In this document: piece after piece, positions 2,417 through 12,589 of the stretch
Layout: each line of letters starts with the position of its first letter
Position numbering within the stretch: position 1 is the first letter of the stretch
Source of the DNA: a virus
IMG/VR virus record: IMGVR_UViG_3300044732_000268
Span: 1-31,837 of that record
Strand: one strand, 5' to 3'
Length of the DNA stretch: 31,837 nt
Made by a program: the position numbers and the translations under genes
The notes under the pieces: model-generated
The model's input: only the letters and a program-made list of their open reading frames with translations
Database searches by the model: none
What the model was told of the DNA's origin: nothing

Positions 2417-2860
2417 TTACTGTTTGTGTTTACACTTATCATTATGGTATCGTGCAAGTAGATTAACACCCATAGTAATATTACAATGTTTACAAGTGCC
2501 TTGAGGAACTTTTAATCCTACAAGCCCTAACTTTGCTCTACCTTTTGATACCATATCATCGTAATTGTCTTTCATAGTGCCAGCCCATAGATGTTCTGGG
2601 TTAACACATAAAGGATTGTCACACGTATGACACACTGATAGACCAGTTGGTATCGGGCCTTTGTGTAGTTCGTAACTTGCTCTATGCGCTGTACGCATTT
2701 TGCCAGTTGACCAGCGAAACATTCCGTATCCGATATTGTTAGTAGCGTTCTGCCACTCCCAGCAATCTGTTACATCATTGATTACATATTTCTTATTGAA
2801 TCGTTGTTCAACTGTTTCGGTTGATACTCTGCCTTTGTAATTACCGTTAGTGTATGCCAT
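2417..2860 (-). CDS. HNH endonuclease
   Basis: A 147-residue protein with a clear HNH (beta-beta-alpha metal) core. It has AHRASYELHKGPIP at about 58-71, CHTCDNPLCVNPEHL at 77-91, and GTMKDNYDDM with a following KGR at 94-108. The Cys pairs probably bind structural zinc, and the His/Asn residues bind the catalytic metal. The tail adds a second CxxC...HxxxC set (C123, C126, H139, C143), suggesting another zinc site. The gene lies between large terminase and portal with a strong AGGAG ribosome site. HNH proteins beside terminases either help packaging or are free-standing homing endonucleases. The sequence does not settle which. Family confidence is high, role is not. Confidence 0.88.
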   Translation of the reverse strand: MAYTNGNYKGRVSTETVEQRFNKKYVINDVTDCWEWQNATNNIGYGMFRWSTGKMRTAHRASYELHKGPIPTGLSVCHTCDNPLCVNPEHLWAGTMKDNYDDMVSKGRAKLGLVGLKVPQGTCKHCNITMGVNLLARYHNDKCKHKQ

Positions 2861-2883
2861 AAGTTTTATCTCCTATATTGTAT

Positions 2884-4323
2884 TTAGTTCCAGGACATAA
2901 AGTCTTCTTCTTGGTCGCCCTTTAGAATCTCTTCCCAAGTAGGACCACCGGGGTAAAGAGGACTGTGAGGCATATAATCAGTCCCAGGATTGTTTGCACG
3001 GGATAAACGCTGATCAGAGTTAACATACTCTGATATGCCAATGGTATGATGTTGAATGGGGAAAAGGTGGTGTATGCCATATCTAATTGAATCTCCTAAG
3101 CCGTCTATGTGGGCGTATTTTTGTTCTGTGTATTTTACTAATTTCTTGCGTGTACCATCTTCAAAGTGGTAAGTCTGTAATGCTTCTAATAATTTCTTAT
3201 CATTAGGGTCAACGATTAGTCCACCTCTGTTGATGAATCCATTGCTCGTATTATCTGTGTCAGTGATAAGGGGGTTTGATTTCCTACTGTTGACGATTGT
3301 AAATCCATACTTCTCAAGTAACACTCTATCAGTGATACCAAAGGGCGAAGTTGTATCTCTATTCGCTTGAGTTCCTGACATATCAATGACTGCGTTAATT
3401 CGTCTTCTGGGGAAGTCTTGTCTGATAGCCTGCGCAAGTCCTTCAGTCCCGCAGTCAGGTATTGCATAAGATTTAAGTATCTCAATAGTTCCGTTTGGTT
3501 GTCCTGCATTTGTCACCTGTGCTACTGTTGCACACATAACACGCTTGTTGAAGTCGTGGAATGTATACAAGTCTTGTTGTTTGTCTACTATTTCCCTACA
3601 ATACTTATGTTTGTCCCAAGTGTAGAAGAACTGGTCTGCTACGCTTTCCCATTGACACATATAGTCTTGATTAAACTTGAGGGGACTTAGTATTCGCTTT
3701 TGTTCATCAATGAAGTCACGGTTACCGCTGCGCATTTCTTCATAGTTCAAGTGTCTAACAATATATTTCTGAGGCATTTCAAGTGCCATCTTAAACAAGT
3801 CATAGAGAGGCCCGGCACCGTTAGGCGTACTGATGACAATCAATCTACCTTGTGTGTCAGGCTGACCCACTTTAGGTCTAAGTCTGTTTGTAATTTCTTG
3901 CAATGTCTCAGATGTATACAGTGCTGCTTCGTCTGCTACCCACACACCAACGTTAAGACCGCGTAAGTTCTCTCTTTGTTCTGCTGATTTACAACGAATG
4001 AACACGCCACCTGGGAACTTGATTGTTAGTTCACTATTGTTAATGTCTTTACCATCTACTAAGCCAAAGTATTCTATGCACGATTTCTTTAACGGTTCCC
4101 ATATCAATGACTTAATCATTGACCCAGTAGGAGCACTATAGATAATGTCTTTACCCTTGTGATACTTTTCATTACTCGCAAAGATAGGCAGTGCAATAGC
4201 AGCAAGAAATGTCTTACCACTACCAACAGGCACAATGTCTATGCAATGCTTATCGGTCGTTAGCCAGTCTTGAAATATAGTTGACTGCTGACCAAATAAA
4301 GGTATCTCTATCTTGTTACTCAT
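2884..4323 (-). CDS. terL: Terminase large subunit
   Basis: A 479-residue packaging motor with both expected domains. The ATPase has a Walker A loop VPVGSGKTF at 31-39, Walker B VGVWVADEAA at 125-134 (D131, E132) and a coupling motif STPNG at 165-169. The C-terminal RNase H-like nuclease shows HDFN (D257), AVIDMSG (D314) and HIDGLGDSIRYGIHHLF (D411), giving a plausible acidic triad for cutting concatemers. It pumps DNA through the portal into the prohead. Its start overlaps the small-terminase stop as TAATG, indicating translational coupling. The stop codon is embedded in the TAAATACAA element that recurs at gene ends in this genome. Confidence 0.95.
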   Translation of the reverse strand: MSNKIEIPLFGQQSTIFQDWLTTDKHCIDIVPVGSGKTFLAAIALPIFASNEKYHKGKDIIYSAPTGSMIKSLIWEPLKKSCIEYFGLVDGKDINNSELTIKFPGGVFIRCKSAEQRENLRGLNVGVWVADEAALYTSETLQEITNRLRPKVGQPDTQGRLIVISTPNGAGPLYDLFKMALEMPQKYIVRHLNYEEMRSGNRDFIDEQKRILSPLKFNQDYMCQWESVADQFFYTWDKHKYCREIVDKQQDLYTFHDFNKRVMCATVAQVTNAGQPNGTIEILKSYAIPDCGTEGLAQAIRQDFPRRRINAVIDMSGTQANRDTTSPFGITDRVLLEKYGFTIVNSRKSNPLITDTDNTSNGFINRGGLIVDPNDKKLLEALQTYHFEDGTRKKLVKYTEQKYAHIDGLGDSIRYGIHHLFPIQHHTIGISEYVNSDQRLSRANNPGTDYMPHSPLYPGGPTWEEILKGDQEEDFMSWN

Positions 4324-5394: not shown

Positions 5395-5777
5395 TAGATG
5401 TACACCTTCTCGTAATCGTCTTCTAAGTCTTCTGGGTCAAGCCCATCATAATAGTCACCAGTCGTTTTGCACTTGTACTTTAACTTACCAAACGATGTTA
5501 GCCACTTCTGGTTCTTTGCATTCCACGCTTTACAAATGTCAAGGAAACGTTCACTGCCTAACATCAATTGTAACTGTGTCTTACAATCTGATACTGATGG
5601 GTTACTGTCACCGATACTGTGTTCAAGAATGTACATATGGTCAATGCACTTATCAACTTCAATCTCAGTCATATAAGGTGATAACTCAGTTACCATCTTA
5701 TTAAAGTTAGCAATGTGACTAACATTCATTGGACGGTCAATAAGACCTCTTAGTTTCTTATCAGTGTTTTGTGACAT
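5394..5777 (-). CDS. Hypothetical acidic protein
   Basis: A 127-residue protein of unknown function. It is mostly helical in appearance (HIANFNKMVTELSPYMTEIE, then KTQLQLMLGSERFLDICKAW). It ends with a strongly acidic tail, DPEDLEDDYEKVYI. Its start lies 17 nt inside the preceding gene and its stop abuts the next start, so it is translated in the same chain as its neighbours. No signal peptide, membrane segment or catalytic motif is visible. Confidence 0.72.
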   Translation of the reverse strand: MSQNTDKKLRGLIDRPMNVSHIANFNKMVTELSPYMTEIEVDKCIDHMYILEHSIGDSNPSVSDCKTQLQLMLGSERFLDICKAWNAKNQKWLTSFGKLKYKCKTTGDYYDGLDPEDLEDDYEKVYI

Positions 5778-9226: not shown

Positions 9227-10852
9227 TTATACCAAAACATTTGATTTATATCCTTTGGCTAACTCCTCTTGTTCTTTGATAAATTGCTTGTGTTCTGCGT
9301 CTTCGTTTATAAAGTACTCAAAGCGTTTTGCTTCCTCTTGACTAAACGATATCAGTTTAGTGCCTAAATAGTTGCCTGCGCCTGGAGTGAAAGCCTCTGA
9401 TAACATAAGATGTAGTTCTGCTAGGTCTACACGCTTTTTCGTATAAATTGCATCGTGTACTCTTAGTAACACTTGATTGCCTTCGCTTGTGATGAAGTCT
9501 TCGGTCTTGTCCATAATGCCACGCTCAAATGTTTGAAAGATGTAAGCCATCAGTCTGTTCTTGTTGAAACTGTTTCTACCATCTACTAAGAAACTGTGGT
9601 CTTGCTTGTTGACTTGTTCATTGTCAATGTACCACTTAGTAATGATATCTGTCATTTCTTTCTGTTCACGCATAAACTCTTTGAGCCAGGGGTCTTGTAG
9701 CAATCGTTCGTATTTGTCCTTAGCAAGAACCATTCTGTCTGTTGTCTTGCTCTTGTATGATAGCAAGTCTGCAATGCTAGTTGATTGCCAGGTTCCGTTA
9801 TCGTCAAAGTAGCCCTTAGTGTTCATTGTTGCGCCAAAGCCAATCGCAGTGATGACTTTCTTGATTACATCTACTTGCCAGTCTGCTGGGCTAAAGTCAG
9901 GGCAGAATACAGTGTCAGCAATGCGTCTACGAATGCTGTCTTTGAACTTAGCGCCGCCTTCAATGTATTCACCAGTGTAAGTGAACTTCTTATCTGACAT
10001 ATGTGAGCAAAGAAAGAACTTGATTGCGTACACAGCAGCGTTCAAGTCGTATTGGAAATGATTGCCTAAGGCTGCGCTACGCACATTGCTGTTCATTGAC
10101 TGCAAACTCTGCCCAGTGTAATATCTACGACCATAACTTGATTCTTTGATGATTTGAGGGAAGAAGCCACCAGTAAGTTCGGCAATGAGTAGCACTTGCT
10201 GCGCTTGCTCACGATACTTACGCATTGTGTCGTTTTGAATGTGATAGTGTTCATTGCCCATAATAAACGCTTTGAGACTGCCTATATCAACAGGGGTAAT
10301 ATCAACAAGTTTTGTATCTGTAATGTCAATGTTGCCATACATTGCTACTAGAAGTTCGTTTGCGTCTTTGAGTTGAATAAGATGTTTAAGTTCGTTGTAG
10401 GGCTTCACGAGAGATACCTTTCCTGTTAAATTGCTGCCGTCAGTTATGATTTGATATTGCGGTTGTAGTTGCTCTACTACCTGCGTGAAATACATTCGCT
10501 TCTTTGAACCAAAGATAGTTTGATAACCTACCTTTCTGTTGAACTCATCGCTGGGTAATTGTAGGTAATCAGTGCCCAAAGTATAATGCTGTCTTGAAAT
10601 TACATAATCGCTTAATGTGTTTTGGTAAAGACGAATCTTATCGTCAATGTTCCTCTTCTGCCAATCTGATTCGCAATTGAAGTAGGTGTAGAAGCGATTT
10701 GCTTCTAGAGGAATTAAGTCTTGAATAGAGAACTTACTCAGATTACTTAATTCAGGGGCGTTCCCCGTAAGGGGATATGCCCTTATATTACATAGATAAC
10801 TATTAGTCGCTTCACTTTTTTGACCTATATTAGTCGCTTCACTTTTTATCAC
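9227..10852 (-). CDS. Divergent polymerase-palm-like protein (possible phage RNA or DNA polymerase)
   Basis: A 541-residue protein starting at GTG, with AAAGG 9 nt upstream and a T9 run between. Three segments resemble the palm of the T7-RNAP/family-A polymerase superfamily in the right order. They are YGRRYYTG...LNAAVYA at 240-276, with a conserved Asp at 269 like motif A; KKVITAIGFGA at 331-341, like motif B (K-x7-[YF]-G); and LLRVHDAIY at 462-470, like the His-Asp of motif C. It is shorter than T7 RNAP, and its spacing differs. It is the only replication- or transcription-like gene seen. A plasmid-type replication protein is an alternative. Codons 2-17 contain a tandem KSEATN repeat. Confidence 0.4.
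   Translation of the reverse strand: MIKSEATNIGQKSEATNSYLCNIRAYPLTGNAPELSNLSKFSIQDLIPLEANRFYTYFNCESDWQKRNIDDKIRLYQNTLSDYVISRQHYTLGTDYLQLPSDEFNRKVGYQTIFGSKKRMYFTQVVEQLQPQYQIITDGSNLTGKVSLVKPYNELKHLIQLKDANELLVAMYGNIDITDTKLVDITPVDIGSLKAFIMGNEHYHIQNDTMRKYREQAQQVLLIAELTGGFFPQIIKESSYGRRYYTGQSLQSMNSNVRSAALGNHFQYDLNAAVYAIKFFLCSHMSDKKFTYTGEYIEGGAKFKDSIRRRIADTVFCPDFSPADWQVDVIKKVITAIGFGATMNTKGYFDDNGTWQSTSIADLLSYKSKTTDRMVLAKDKYERLLQDPWLKEFMREQKEMTDIITKWYIDNEQVNKQDHSFLVDGRNSFNKNRLMAYIFQTFERGIMDKTEDFITSEGNQVLLRVHDAIYTKKRVDLAELHLMLSEAFTPGAGNYLGTKLISFSQEEAKRFEYFINEDAEHKQFIKEQEELAKGYKSNVLV
10801..10847. repeat. Pair of 20-bp direct repeats in the polymerase 5' coding region
   Basis: TATTAGTCGCTTCACTTTTT occurs at 10801-10820 and again at 10828-10847, 27 bp apart. 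The spacing keeps frame, so the protein carries KSEATN twice near its N-terminus. The repeat lies next to the T9 run and the structured leader. Iteron-like pairs beside a replication gene may mark an origin, but two copies are few, and slippage duplication of coding sequence is an equal explanation. Confidence 0.6.
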
Positions 10853-10866
10853 AAAAAAAAACCTTT

Positions 10867-10943
10867 CAATGTTAGTCTAAACAATGTCACTTTAGCGAGA
10901 TTGTGACCCGCCGCGCTAACAGCGGGCCACTAACATTGTTTAG
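10867..10943 (-). promoter_or_regulatory. Structured leader of the polymerase-like gene with mutually exclusive stems
   Basis: In the minus-strand leader an 11-bp stem (10877-10887 with 10933-10943, CTAAACAATGT/ACATTGTTTAG) can enclose inner hairpins. One inner hairpin is GGCCCGC/GCGGGTC (10922-10928 with 10905-10911). The other is GTCAC/GTGAC (10886-10890 with 10903-10907). Alternatively a 10-bp stem pairs 10867-10876 with 10929-10938 (ACTAACATTG/CAATGTTAGT). The 11-bp and 10-bp stems share 10933-10938, so they exclude each other. The second lies directly before the AAAGG ribosome site and T9 run, so choice of fold could set translation or transcription of the gene. Confidence 0.6.
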
Positions 10944-10945
10944 GA

Positions 10946-10967
10946 GTAAGTCTGTCAAAAGACTTAC
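10946..10967 (-). promoter_or_regulatory. 5'-terminal stem-loop of the polymerase transcript
   Basis: GTAAGTC (minus strand, 10967-10961) pairs with GACTTAC (10952-10946) around an 8-nt loop. The predicted first transcribed base is 10967 or 10968, so the RNA begins in the stem. 5' stem-loops of this kind protect mRNA from 5'-end-dependent decay. The other three promoters in this region fire into similar stems. Confidence 0.6.
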
Positions 10968-10974
10968 AAGACTA

Positions 10975-11003
10975 TTTATACATTATATAGTATTAATTGT
11001 CAA
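10975..11003 (-). promoter_or_regulatory. Sigma-70 promoter for the polymerase-like gene
   Basis: On the minus strand TTGACA (11003-10998) is followed by 17 bp and TATAAA (10980-10975), an almost perfect host-type promoter pointing at the polymerase-like gene. The intergenic position, directly after the terminator of the upstream non-coding RNA, supports it. Confidence 0.8.
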
Positions 11004-11022: not shown

Positions 11023-11061
11023 AAAAAAAGAGCGACCTAACCTGGGGAGTTAGACCGCTCT
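11023..11061 (-). terminator. Strong intrinsic terminator of the candidate small RNA
   Basis: On the minus strand AGAGCG-GT-CTAAC pairs with GTTAG-GT-CGCTCT around a 7-nt loop, followed by seven T (11029-11023). The two central positions are tandem G-U wobble pairs only when the minus strand is the RNA. On the plus strand they would be A-C mismatches and the T-run would be absent. This fixes the direction as leftward. Confidence 0.85.
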
Positions 11062-11143
11062 CTCGTTTCTGTTCTGACAGTAGGGTATGCAAGTTTACGA
11101 AAAAACACACCCTAGTTGTCAGCGAGCCTCATTGCTGCTGACT
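11023..11143 (-). ncRNA. Candidate phage small RNA, about 121 nt
   Basis: A complete transcription unit without a gene. A TTGTAA-N17-TATAAT promoter predicts a start at 11143 or 11142, and the T7 terminator ends it near 11023. The RNA starts with a stem GTCAGC-AGC/GCT-C-GCTGAC (11142-11118) capped by AATGAG. A second stem pairs CTGACA-AC-TAGGGT (11122-11109) with ACCCTA-C-TGTCAG (11086-11074). The two share CTGAC and cannot form together, so the RNA is potentially bistable. It holds no credible reading frame. It matches no RNA family I recognise. Possible roles are trans-acting regulation, replication priming or antisense control of the divergent modules. Confidence 0.65.
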
Positions 11144-11149
11144 GTTGTA

Positions 11150-11178
11150 ATTATACAACACAATTCATATTTTTACAA
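11150..11178 (-). promoter_or_regulatory. Sigma-70 promoter of the small RNA
   Basis: On the minus strand TTGTAA (11178-11173), a 17-bp spacer and a perfect TATAAT (11155-11150). The predicted start falls one base before or at the first base of the GTCAGC stem. The minus -35 is a 4/6 match; the -10 and spacing are ideal. Confidence 0.7.
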
Positions 11179-11205: not shown

Positions 11206-11234
11206 TTGACAATGGGTACCCGTTTTGCTATAGT
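11206..11234 (+). promoter_or_regulatory. Sigma-70 promoter P1 of the rightward genes
   Basis: TTGACA (11206-11211), 17-bp spacer, TATAGT (11229-11234). The spacer contains the 8-bp palindrome GGGTACCC (11214-11221), placed where a repressor would block polymerase. The 13 bases TAATCGGTTGACA (11199-11211) recur exactly at P2. The predicted start is the first base of a stem-loop. Confidence 0.85.
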
Positions 11235-11240
11235 GAGAAT

Positions 11241-11256
11241 GTAGCGAGATTGCTAC
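11241..11256 (+). promoter_or_regulatory. 5'-terminal stem-loop of the P1 transcript
   Basis: GTAGC-GAGATT-GCTAC begins at the predicted +1 (11241). The flanks ATGTAGCG...TTGCTACGACA recur at P2 with a changed loop, so the stem is kept while the loop varies. TAGCGAGATTG (11242-11252) is the exact complement of a loop in the polymerase leader RNA (10893-10903). Confidence 0.7.
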
Positions 11257-11275
11257 GACATTTGGAGTGAATGAT

Positions 11276-11494
11276 ATGATCAAGCAAATTAACATTCTCG
11301 TTGGCGCTGATGCAATTCAAGACAGTATGGTTGACCAGGACCTCTACATTGCGGAAATCGTTGACGCTGACAATTTTACTGAACGTCTGATTGTTAGCAT
11401 TGAAATGCTGATTGACGCAGGTTATATGAATGATAAGTTGACAGAAACTCAGGTATATAACAATCTTAAGAAAGTTTTGCCTACGATCAATTAA
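11276..11494 (+). CDS. Small acidic protein, first gene of the rightward module
   Basis: A 72-residue protein of unknown function (begins MIKQINILVGADAIQDSMVD). I chose ATG 11276 because GGAG (11264-11267) lies 8 nt upstream. An in-frame GTG at 11267 overlaps that ribosome site and is less likely. The protein is acidic and helical in appearance (RLIVSIEMLIDAGYMNDKLT). It is the first gene after promoter P1 and its 5' stem-loop, so it is probably an early product. A second promoter follows only 5 bp after its stop. No DNA-binding helix-turn-helix is obvious. Confidence 0.75.
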   Translation: MIKQINILVGADAIQDSMVDQDLYIAEIVDADNFTERLIVSIEMLIDAGYMNDKLTETQVYNNLKKVLPTIN

Positions 11495-11498
11495 TCGG

Positions 11499-11527
11499 TT
11501 GACACGACCGTATAAATACTATATAAC
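11499..11527 (+). promoter_or_regulatory. Sigma-70 promoter P2
   Basis: TTGACA (11499-11504), 17-bp spacer, TATAAC (11522-11527), placed between the first and second rightward genes. It shares TAATCGGTTGACA (11492-11504) with P1 but not the GGGTACCC palindrome in the spacer, so the two promoters may differ in repression. Confidence 0.82.
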
Positions 11528-11534
11528 AGTAAAT

Positions 11535-11550
11535 GTAGCGCAGTTGCTAC
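11535..11550 (+). promoter_or_regulatory. 5'-terminal stem-loop of the P2 transcript
   Basis: GTAGC-GCAGTT-GCTAC starts one base after the predicted +1 (11534). It copies the P1 element: identical 5-bp stem and flanks (ATGTAGCG and TTGCTACGACA), different loop. Confidence 0.7.
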
Positions 11551-11574
11551 GACACATTTTTTAGGATTACTTTT

Positions 11575-11973
11575 ATGTCTACTACTACTATTGATTTTGA
11601 TAATGTTCAAACAGTTATTCGTCAGGTTATGCGTTCTATCGCATCGCTCAATGTTTCATCTTATACCGCAGGTAACAGTGATAAGGTTGAGGACGATGTT
11701 GACGCTTCGTTCTTTGCGCTTGATTATGCTATGCCCGAAGTTTCTTGCTTGAGCGACACTGTGACACGCCGTTGTGCTAAGTCAGAGATTTACAGCGTTC
11801 TTGACCAGGTCGTAGCATTTCGTGCTGCTAATCCTGGCGTTGCTTTCTATCATTTGTTTGACAGCATCACTGCCGAGTCTGTAATGGAAGACATTATGGA
11901 TATGAACGAAGACGATGACGACGATGACGCATATCTTGAAGATATGTTCAATCTCATTTCAAAGGCAGCGTAA
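11575..11973 (+). CDS. Acidic protein with Asp/Glu-rich C-terminus
   Basis: A 132-residue protein with AGGA upstream of its ATG and its own promoter P2. The body appears helical (IRQVMRSIASLNVSSYTAG; EIYSVLDQVVAFRAANPGV). It ends with an extremely acidic stretch, MNEDDDDDDAYLEDM. Such tails are common in DNA mimics and anti-restriction proteins, or in proteins that bind basic partners. This is only a suggestion. It overlaps the next gene by TAATG. I do not recognise the family. Confidence 0.75.
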   Translation: MSTTTIDFDNVQTVIRQVMRSIASLNVSSYTAGNSDKVEDDVDASFFALDYAMPEVSCLSDTVTRRCAKSEIYSVLDQVVAFRAANPGVAFYHLFDSITAESVMEDIMDMNEDDDDDDAYLEDMFNLISKAA

Positions 11974-12278
11974 TGCATAAGTTTCTAATCGCTCTTGCTC
12001 TCGTTGCAAGCCCTGCTGTCGCTGAACCAGCGATGCCAGGGCCCGACGCTTCATATGAAGAACGCCGCGAATATATGAATCAGGTTCGTGCAGAGGCTGC
12101 TGAAAAGCATAAACAAGCCGTTGCTGAAAGCGAACAGCGTATGCGTGACTTCAATGTTAAGGTGGGATTACCTGCTGACTATCAGAGTTATGGCACTGGG
12201 CGCGGCTGTCGCTACTCGTGTGTCACTACAGTCATCGCTAATGGCAAGGTCTATCGCTTTCAGGTGAGTAGACGGTGA
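11973..12278 (+). CDS. Small exported protein with signal peptide
   Basis: A 101-residue protein starting with a classic Sec signal, MHKFLIALALVASPAVA, cleavable after AVA at about residue 17. The mature part has a charged helical segment (YEERREYMNQVRAEAAEKHK onward) and a C-terminal compact piece with two cysteines (GCRYSC) that could form a disulfide outside the cytoplasm. It is translationally coupled to both neighbours. A periplasmic protein made early could act in superinfection exclusion or envelope modification, or in lysis timing. Nothing in the sequence chooses between these. Confidence 0.8.
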   Translation: MHKFLIALALVASPAVAEPAMPGPDASYEERREYMNQVRAEAAEKHKQAVAESEQRMRDFNVKVGLPADYQSYGTGRGCRYSCVTTVIANGKVYRFQVSRR

Positions 12279-12589
12279 ATTATCACGGTATGGAACCAGC
12301 AAAGCATTTAGAGTTTATGTTCAATGCAGTCATTGAGCAGACTGGGCAGAGACGCTACCTTAAAGAAGATTTACAACTCTGTAATAGAATGAGTTACGGC
12401 GAACTGATGCCACAGAATGCGGCTGTTCGTATGGAAAACGAAATCGCTGTAAAGATGGGTGAGGGTGACTATCAGAACTTAATGGATAGTTACGGCAGAT
12501 ATCTTGAACTTGTGTACGCTATGGAGCGAGACCCTGTTGTTAAAGATATGTTTGAGAAGATGATTATTTATCTACGCCTAAAATACTAA
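12275..12589 (+). CDS. Hypothetical helical protein, last rightward gene
   Basis: A 104-residue protein beginning at GTG in a GTGA overlap with the previous stop, with AGGTGAG about 7 nt upstream. An internal ATG at 12290 is a weaker alternative. The protein is Met/Tyr/Leu-rich and helical in appearance (YQNLMDSYGRYLELVYAMER; VVKDMFEKMIIYLRLKY). Function unknown. A terminator follows 4 bases after its stop, ending the rightward operon. Confidence 0.72.
   Translation: MNYHGMEPAKHLEFMFNAVIEQTGQRRYLKEDLQLCNRMSYGELMPQNAAVRMENEIAVKMGEGDYQNLMDSYGRYLELVYAMERDPVVKDMFEKMIIYLRLKY

Follow-up and report, generated by a model that had tools for sequence, protein, structure and literature searches.

The window, by which we mean the whole 31,837-bp stretch analysed, is a complete IMG/VR virus record. 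Its genes, which include terminase, portal and tail-type genes, lie almost all on the minus strand, the exception being a short run of small plus-strand genes (11267-12589). Between the minus-strand genes and the plus-strand block is a divergent control region that contains a structured small RNA (sRNA) unit of 121 nt (11023-11143, minus strand). Read in the minus-strand direction, the unit follows a sigma70-type promoter (11150-11178) and comprises hairpin 1 (nt 2-26, starting from +2; 11118-11142), hairpin 2 (nt 30-63; 11081-11114), which has a mostly conserved 14-nt loop, an invariant UGUCAG (nt 65-70; 11074-11079) that complements nt 22-27 in the 3' arm of hairpin 1 and could form a minor alternative helix with it, and an intrinsic terminator (11023-11064). 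About 20 bp past the end of the terminator is a second minus-strand promoter (TTGACA-N17-TATAAA, 10973-11003), which continues as a TATAAATA box and precedes a polymerase-like gene (9227-10852, minus strand; 541 aa, with conserved YDLNAA and HD motifs). The second transcript is predicted to open with a 5' hairpin (GUAAGUC..GACUUAC; 10946-10967, minus strand), followed by a kissing-loop three-way-junction leader for the polymerase-like gene (UUAGCG with CGCUAA; 10877-10943, minus strand).

The original prediction described a self-contained transcription unit, and its elements were found as described: the promoter TTGTAA-N17-TATAAT is present at 11178-11150(-), the 121-nt body contains no gene-sized ORF, and the terminator consists of a 17-bp stem with tandem G-U pairs (nt 80-96 with 102-118) followed by a T7 tail. 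The proposed minus-strand direction agrees with the folding energies, which are -49.5 kcal/mol (z -5.84) for the minus strand versus -34.3 kcal/mol (z -1.76) for the plus strand, and the terminator helix has a probability of 0.9999 in 4/4 sRNA sequences. The strand opposite 11023-11143 also lacks a gene-sized ORF. A tiny ORF (ATG..TAG) within hairpin 1 was considered and rejected; it has 6 codons, reads on in the related contig L002, and has no Shine-Dalgarno sequence. Searches of Rfam 15 at gathering and relaxed thresholds returned no family for the sRNA, with sub-threshold scores far under the cut-off, consistent with the earlier statement that the RNA was not recognisable as a known family.

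BLAST of the region against the fetched loci identified sRNA homologues in three other phage contigs (L002, L017 and L003), all of which keep the whole unit, with 86.6-89.9% identity between the window and its relatives. In all three, the sRNA promoter is the perfect consensus TTGACA-N17-TATAAT (12/12); the window has a weaker -35 box and is missing ~20 bp of the upstream stretch. At each of the four sigma70-type promoters counted in the control region (11178-, 11003-, 11206+ and 11499+), a hairpin begins 5-7 nt past the -10 box, compared with a baseline of 5.8% of positions. This arrangement supports the predicted transcript starts, the sRNA start among them, and points to 5' hairpins as a general feature of control-region transcripts. 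The start hairpins, each at about +1/+2, are located at 11240-11256 and 11534-11551 on the plus strand and at 10946-10967 and 11118-11142 on the minus strand. An inverted repeat (TGTTGTA-TAAT-TACAACA, 11143-11160) spans the -10 box and start site of the sRNA promoter, is the same in 4/4 phages, and may serve as an operator; no repressor for it was identified.

The sRNA is more conserved than silent positions in the nearest genes. Compared with L003, 103/119 sRNA positions are identical, versus 63/107 (59%) of the 4-fold sites in the adjoining polymerase-like gene (Fisher p 2.5e-6), and compared with L017, 107/120 are identical, versus 15/25 (60%) of the 4-fold sites in p8595 (p 0.001). The contrast is clear for the nearest neighbouring genes only, since the two measures are alike for the closest relative, L002 (90% for the sRNA and 88% for 4-fold sites), and 4-fold identity in other genes ranges from 63% to 85% against L017 and L003. 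Across the four sRNAs, 98.6% of base-pair cells are retained and four pairs have changed on both sides. Compensatory changes had been named as a check for both stems and were found in hairpins 1 and 2 (n=4 sequences): all changes in hairpin 1 keep pairing, with one pair changing from C-G to U-A in L002, and three pairs in hairpin 2 are altered on both sides, with pairing kept except at the closing pair 39-54. The terminator is almost invariant. Because the unit is kept in its homologues and carries paired two-sided changes, it is, as a sequence feature, beyond chance; the covariation, coming from four fairly close relatives, is supportive but short of proof. Two sRNA patterns run over viral contigs returned the same three contigs only, with no match in bacterial and archaeal genome contigs, and a covariance model search recovered only the known members. 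A covariance-model match in L026 was dismissed as an ordinary terminator-like hairpin with unrelated genes on either side. A search for DNA similarity among named phages found none.

The shared CTGAC that led to the proposal of two mutually exclusive folds is real, and pairing of nt 22-27 with nt 65-70 is possible in 4/4 sequences, but a working balance between the two folds was not confirmed. The energy comparison suggested as a check speaks against bistability, with the alternative helix 2.6-5.7 kcal/mol worse than hairpin 1 and occupying 0.0006-0.012 of the ensemble (0.06-1.2%) at 37 C and <5e-4 (<0.05%) at 20 C. Hairpin 1 would also be completed before the alternative helix during transcription. 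The alternative helix involves only nt 22-27 and 65-70 and does not compete with the terminator, as an attenuator or riboswitch helix would, so the terminator is unchanged in either fold. A switch in which nt 22-27 swap between nt 2-7 and nt 65-70, with the choice setting activity, is therefore very unlikely, even though both pairings are feasible in all four sequences and UGUCAG is invariant beside a variable linker; the sole alternative-helix pair that varies (C-G to U-G) is weak evidence. Any two-fold behaviour would be limited to an induced rearrangement, such as one set off when a partner opens hairpin 1.

The sRNA is not tied to the gene beside it. In L017, an unrelated 262-aa ORF (2625-3413), preceded by the same leader, has taken the place of the polymerase-like gene, yet the sRNA and its promoter stay, and the upstream opposite-strand genes vary among the phages while the sRNA and promoter persist. 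Conversely, phage G008 lacks the sRNA but carries a relative of the polymerase-like gene (33% identity), and the slot between its perfect sigma70 promoter and TATAAATA box holds a small ORF instead. Together, these two patterns indicate that the sRNA looks like a separate control-region gene rather than part of the polymerase-like gene. Small ORFs (72-94 aa as listed) with an LPSWR/LPTWR motif occupy the sRNA slot in L131 (12973-13257), L043 (3650-3868) and L081 (4056-4283).

These patterns weaken the suggestion that the RNA acts in priming or copy control through the adjacent polymerase-like gene, as the RNA occurs without the gene in L017 and a relative of the gene occurs without the RNA in G008. 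A replication primer or copy-number RNA would be in keeping with a position adjoining the sole polymerase-like gene and with the AT-rich stretch past the terminator, but there is no promoter for an antisense partner and the GC-skew has no clear turn at the locus, and we consider this role extremely improbable. No strong plus-strand promoter reads through the unit as in a ColE1-type RNA I/RNA II pair; the promoters at 11206 and 11499 point away from it. Like the lambda pO/OOP unit, the sRNA is a short RNA with a dedicated promoter, an intrinsic terminator and a control-region location beside a replication-type gene. Unlike OOP, which is antisense to cII, it overlaps no gene-sized opposite-strand ORF, and it has no Rfam match. 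A primer role was also proposed for OOP and afterwards judged unlikely (PMC3985674).

The label "polymerase-like" comes from motifs read by eye, and neither family searches (no Pfam or PHROG match for the 541-aa protein) nor a low-confidence structural model settled the identity of the protein; the predicted structure, with a mean pLDDT of 38.9, was unusable. L143 and L144, phage records of 35-36 kb, each encode a relative at 33% identity. The TATAAATA box matches the core of T4 late promoters exactly and occurs in the window at 11511(+), 10973(-), 9224(-) and 2408(-), each time just upstream of a same-strand gene, with similar placement in L092, L133 and L013. Its count is not above chance (4 versus 4.1 expected), but the placement is striking in a phage that has no evident kinship with T4.

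Taken with the comparison among phages, the sequence provides a promoter, a structure, a terminator, a direction, conservation and independence from flanking genes, and 11143-11023(-) is very probably a genuine gene for a ~121-nt non-coding RNA. We favour, at roughly an even chance, an independently transcribed and probably early sRNA that acts in trans. Transcription would be initiated near 11143 by host RNA polymerase carrying a sigma70-type factor, and the transcript would fold in order into the 5' hairpin from +2, hairpin 2 with its large conserved loop, the invariant UGUCAG and the strong intrinsic terminator, which would halt synthesis ahead of the next promoter. The most likely role of the 5' hairpin and the terminator would be stabilisation of the RNA, and we infer that its expression is early and that its conserved loops target host or phage RNA. 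Phage-encoded trans-acting sRNAs with known targets among host or phage RNAs include VpdS, PreS and AgvB, of which VpdS and PreS bind Hfq (PMC12197685). The sRNA is like these in being a phage-encoded, putative regulatory RNA, although it differs from them in that their targets, and the Hfq binding of VpdS and PreS, are known; the U7 tail of its terminator would be compatible with an Hfq-dependent sRNA. Comparative support of any sort is rare for small RNAs of uncultured phages; the sRNA, whose promoter, structure and terminator are conserved while its neighbours are swapped, makes a clean candidate phage regulator.

The high sequence conservation of the sRNA would also fit a cis-acting element, and a cis-acting leader is the main rival to the trans-acting sRNA. 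HK022 put RNA suppresses pausing and termination in cis via the beta' subunit of RNA polymerase, and the lambda 6S (pR') RNA is a short transcript that heads a long operon and ends at a terminator. By analogy, the two hairpins could act on the transcribing RNA polymerase as put does, or, as at lambda pR'-tR', conditional read-through of the terminator could feed the leftward operon, the short RNA being the terminated product. The position at the head of a long leftward operon and the almost invariant terminator between promoter and operon are in line with such roles, as are the two stem-loops at +2 to +63 straight after the promoter, an arrangement that matches HK022 putL, in which two stem-loops, together spanning about 60-70 nt, follow directly after an early promoter (PMC9378689). 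The likeness to put is one of layout; in the sRNA, an intrinsic terminator follows the hairpins immediately, and Rfam gives no match. Likewise, the sRNA resembles 6S in its short length, its termination and its place in front of a long operon, but the operon here has its own promoter just past the terminator and no Q-like gene was identified. An anti-terminator pairing is also absent, the terminator helix being nearly certain in all four sequences, and few convincing downstream terminators could act as substrates for antitermination. We regard the two cis-acting variants, taken together, as possible but unlikely, and place them after the trans-acting sRNA and ahead of an RNA decoy because of the put-like layout.

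No target of a trans-acting sRNA emerged from the window. The longest complementary matches between the sRNA and phage mRNAs, at 10-12 nt, are about at chance level and unconserved. A pairing between UGUCAGAA and the loop of the 5' hairpin of the second transcript (UUUUGACA) has 8 pairs in the window and L002 and was rejected, since only 4 pairs can be read from the sequences of L017 and L003. A host search by terminase found none. The negative search among phage RNAs would suit an RNA decoy or inhibitor that captures a host protein or nucleoprotein (e.g. an RNase, Hfq or a CRISPR effector) with its conserved loops, as would the U7 tail behind the terminator and the conservation of loops and linker while stem 2 varies; with no known-family match and nothing specific pointing to it, a decoy seems doubtful.

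The leader of the second transcript is the more novel part of the locus and, judged from its sequence, a better candidate than the sRNA for two competing folds. Its fold has a z of -6.6 and contains a three-way junction, where the loops of hairpins A and B can pair with each other. This loop-loop contact covaries strongly, with five distinct loop pairs: UUAGCG/CGCUAA in the window and L002 (one pair longer in L043, L045 and L148), UUUGCG/CGCAAA in L017, UUGACG/CGUCAA in L003, CUGAUAG/CUAUCAG in G008 and CUGACGG/CCGUCAG in L145. A descriptor scan matched the window, L002, L003, L043 and L045, and gave 0 matches in 15.7 Mb of order-1 resampled sequence; as the descriptor was written after the first members had been seen, L043 and L045 are its only independent finds. 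The leaders of L145 and L148 were found by a separate pattern, and a match in L127 was judged to be chance.

The outer 5' strand of the leader has alternative partners, one an inner strand and the other a second, more 3' strand, in the window (13 versus 10 bp), L002 (13 versus 10 bp), L043 (7 versus 9 bp) and L145 (10 versus 11 bp). The second strand covers an AGGA Shine-Dalgarno-like sequence in L043 and L145, and is a weak partner in G008, L017 and L003. A broader, rather improbable reading is that two new RNA families work together in the control region: an early sRNA that took the slot held by a small early gene in related phages, and a leader that acts as a phage translational switch. In that reading, the leader would let this phage group sense a ligand or protein, and the three-way junction would compete for one strand with a pairing that lies close to the Shine-Dalgarno sequence or covers it. 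Should the leader prove to switch translation, it would represent a new control element of phages, open to in vitro tests that need no host. The leader precedes whichever gene comes first in the operon, as at 13302-13371 in L131, 3908-3969 in L043 and about 5655-5727 (-) in L145.
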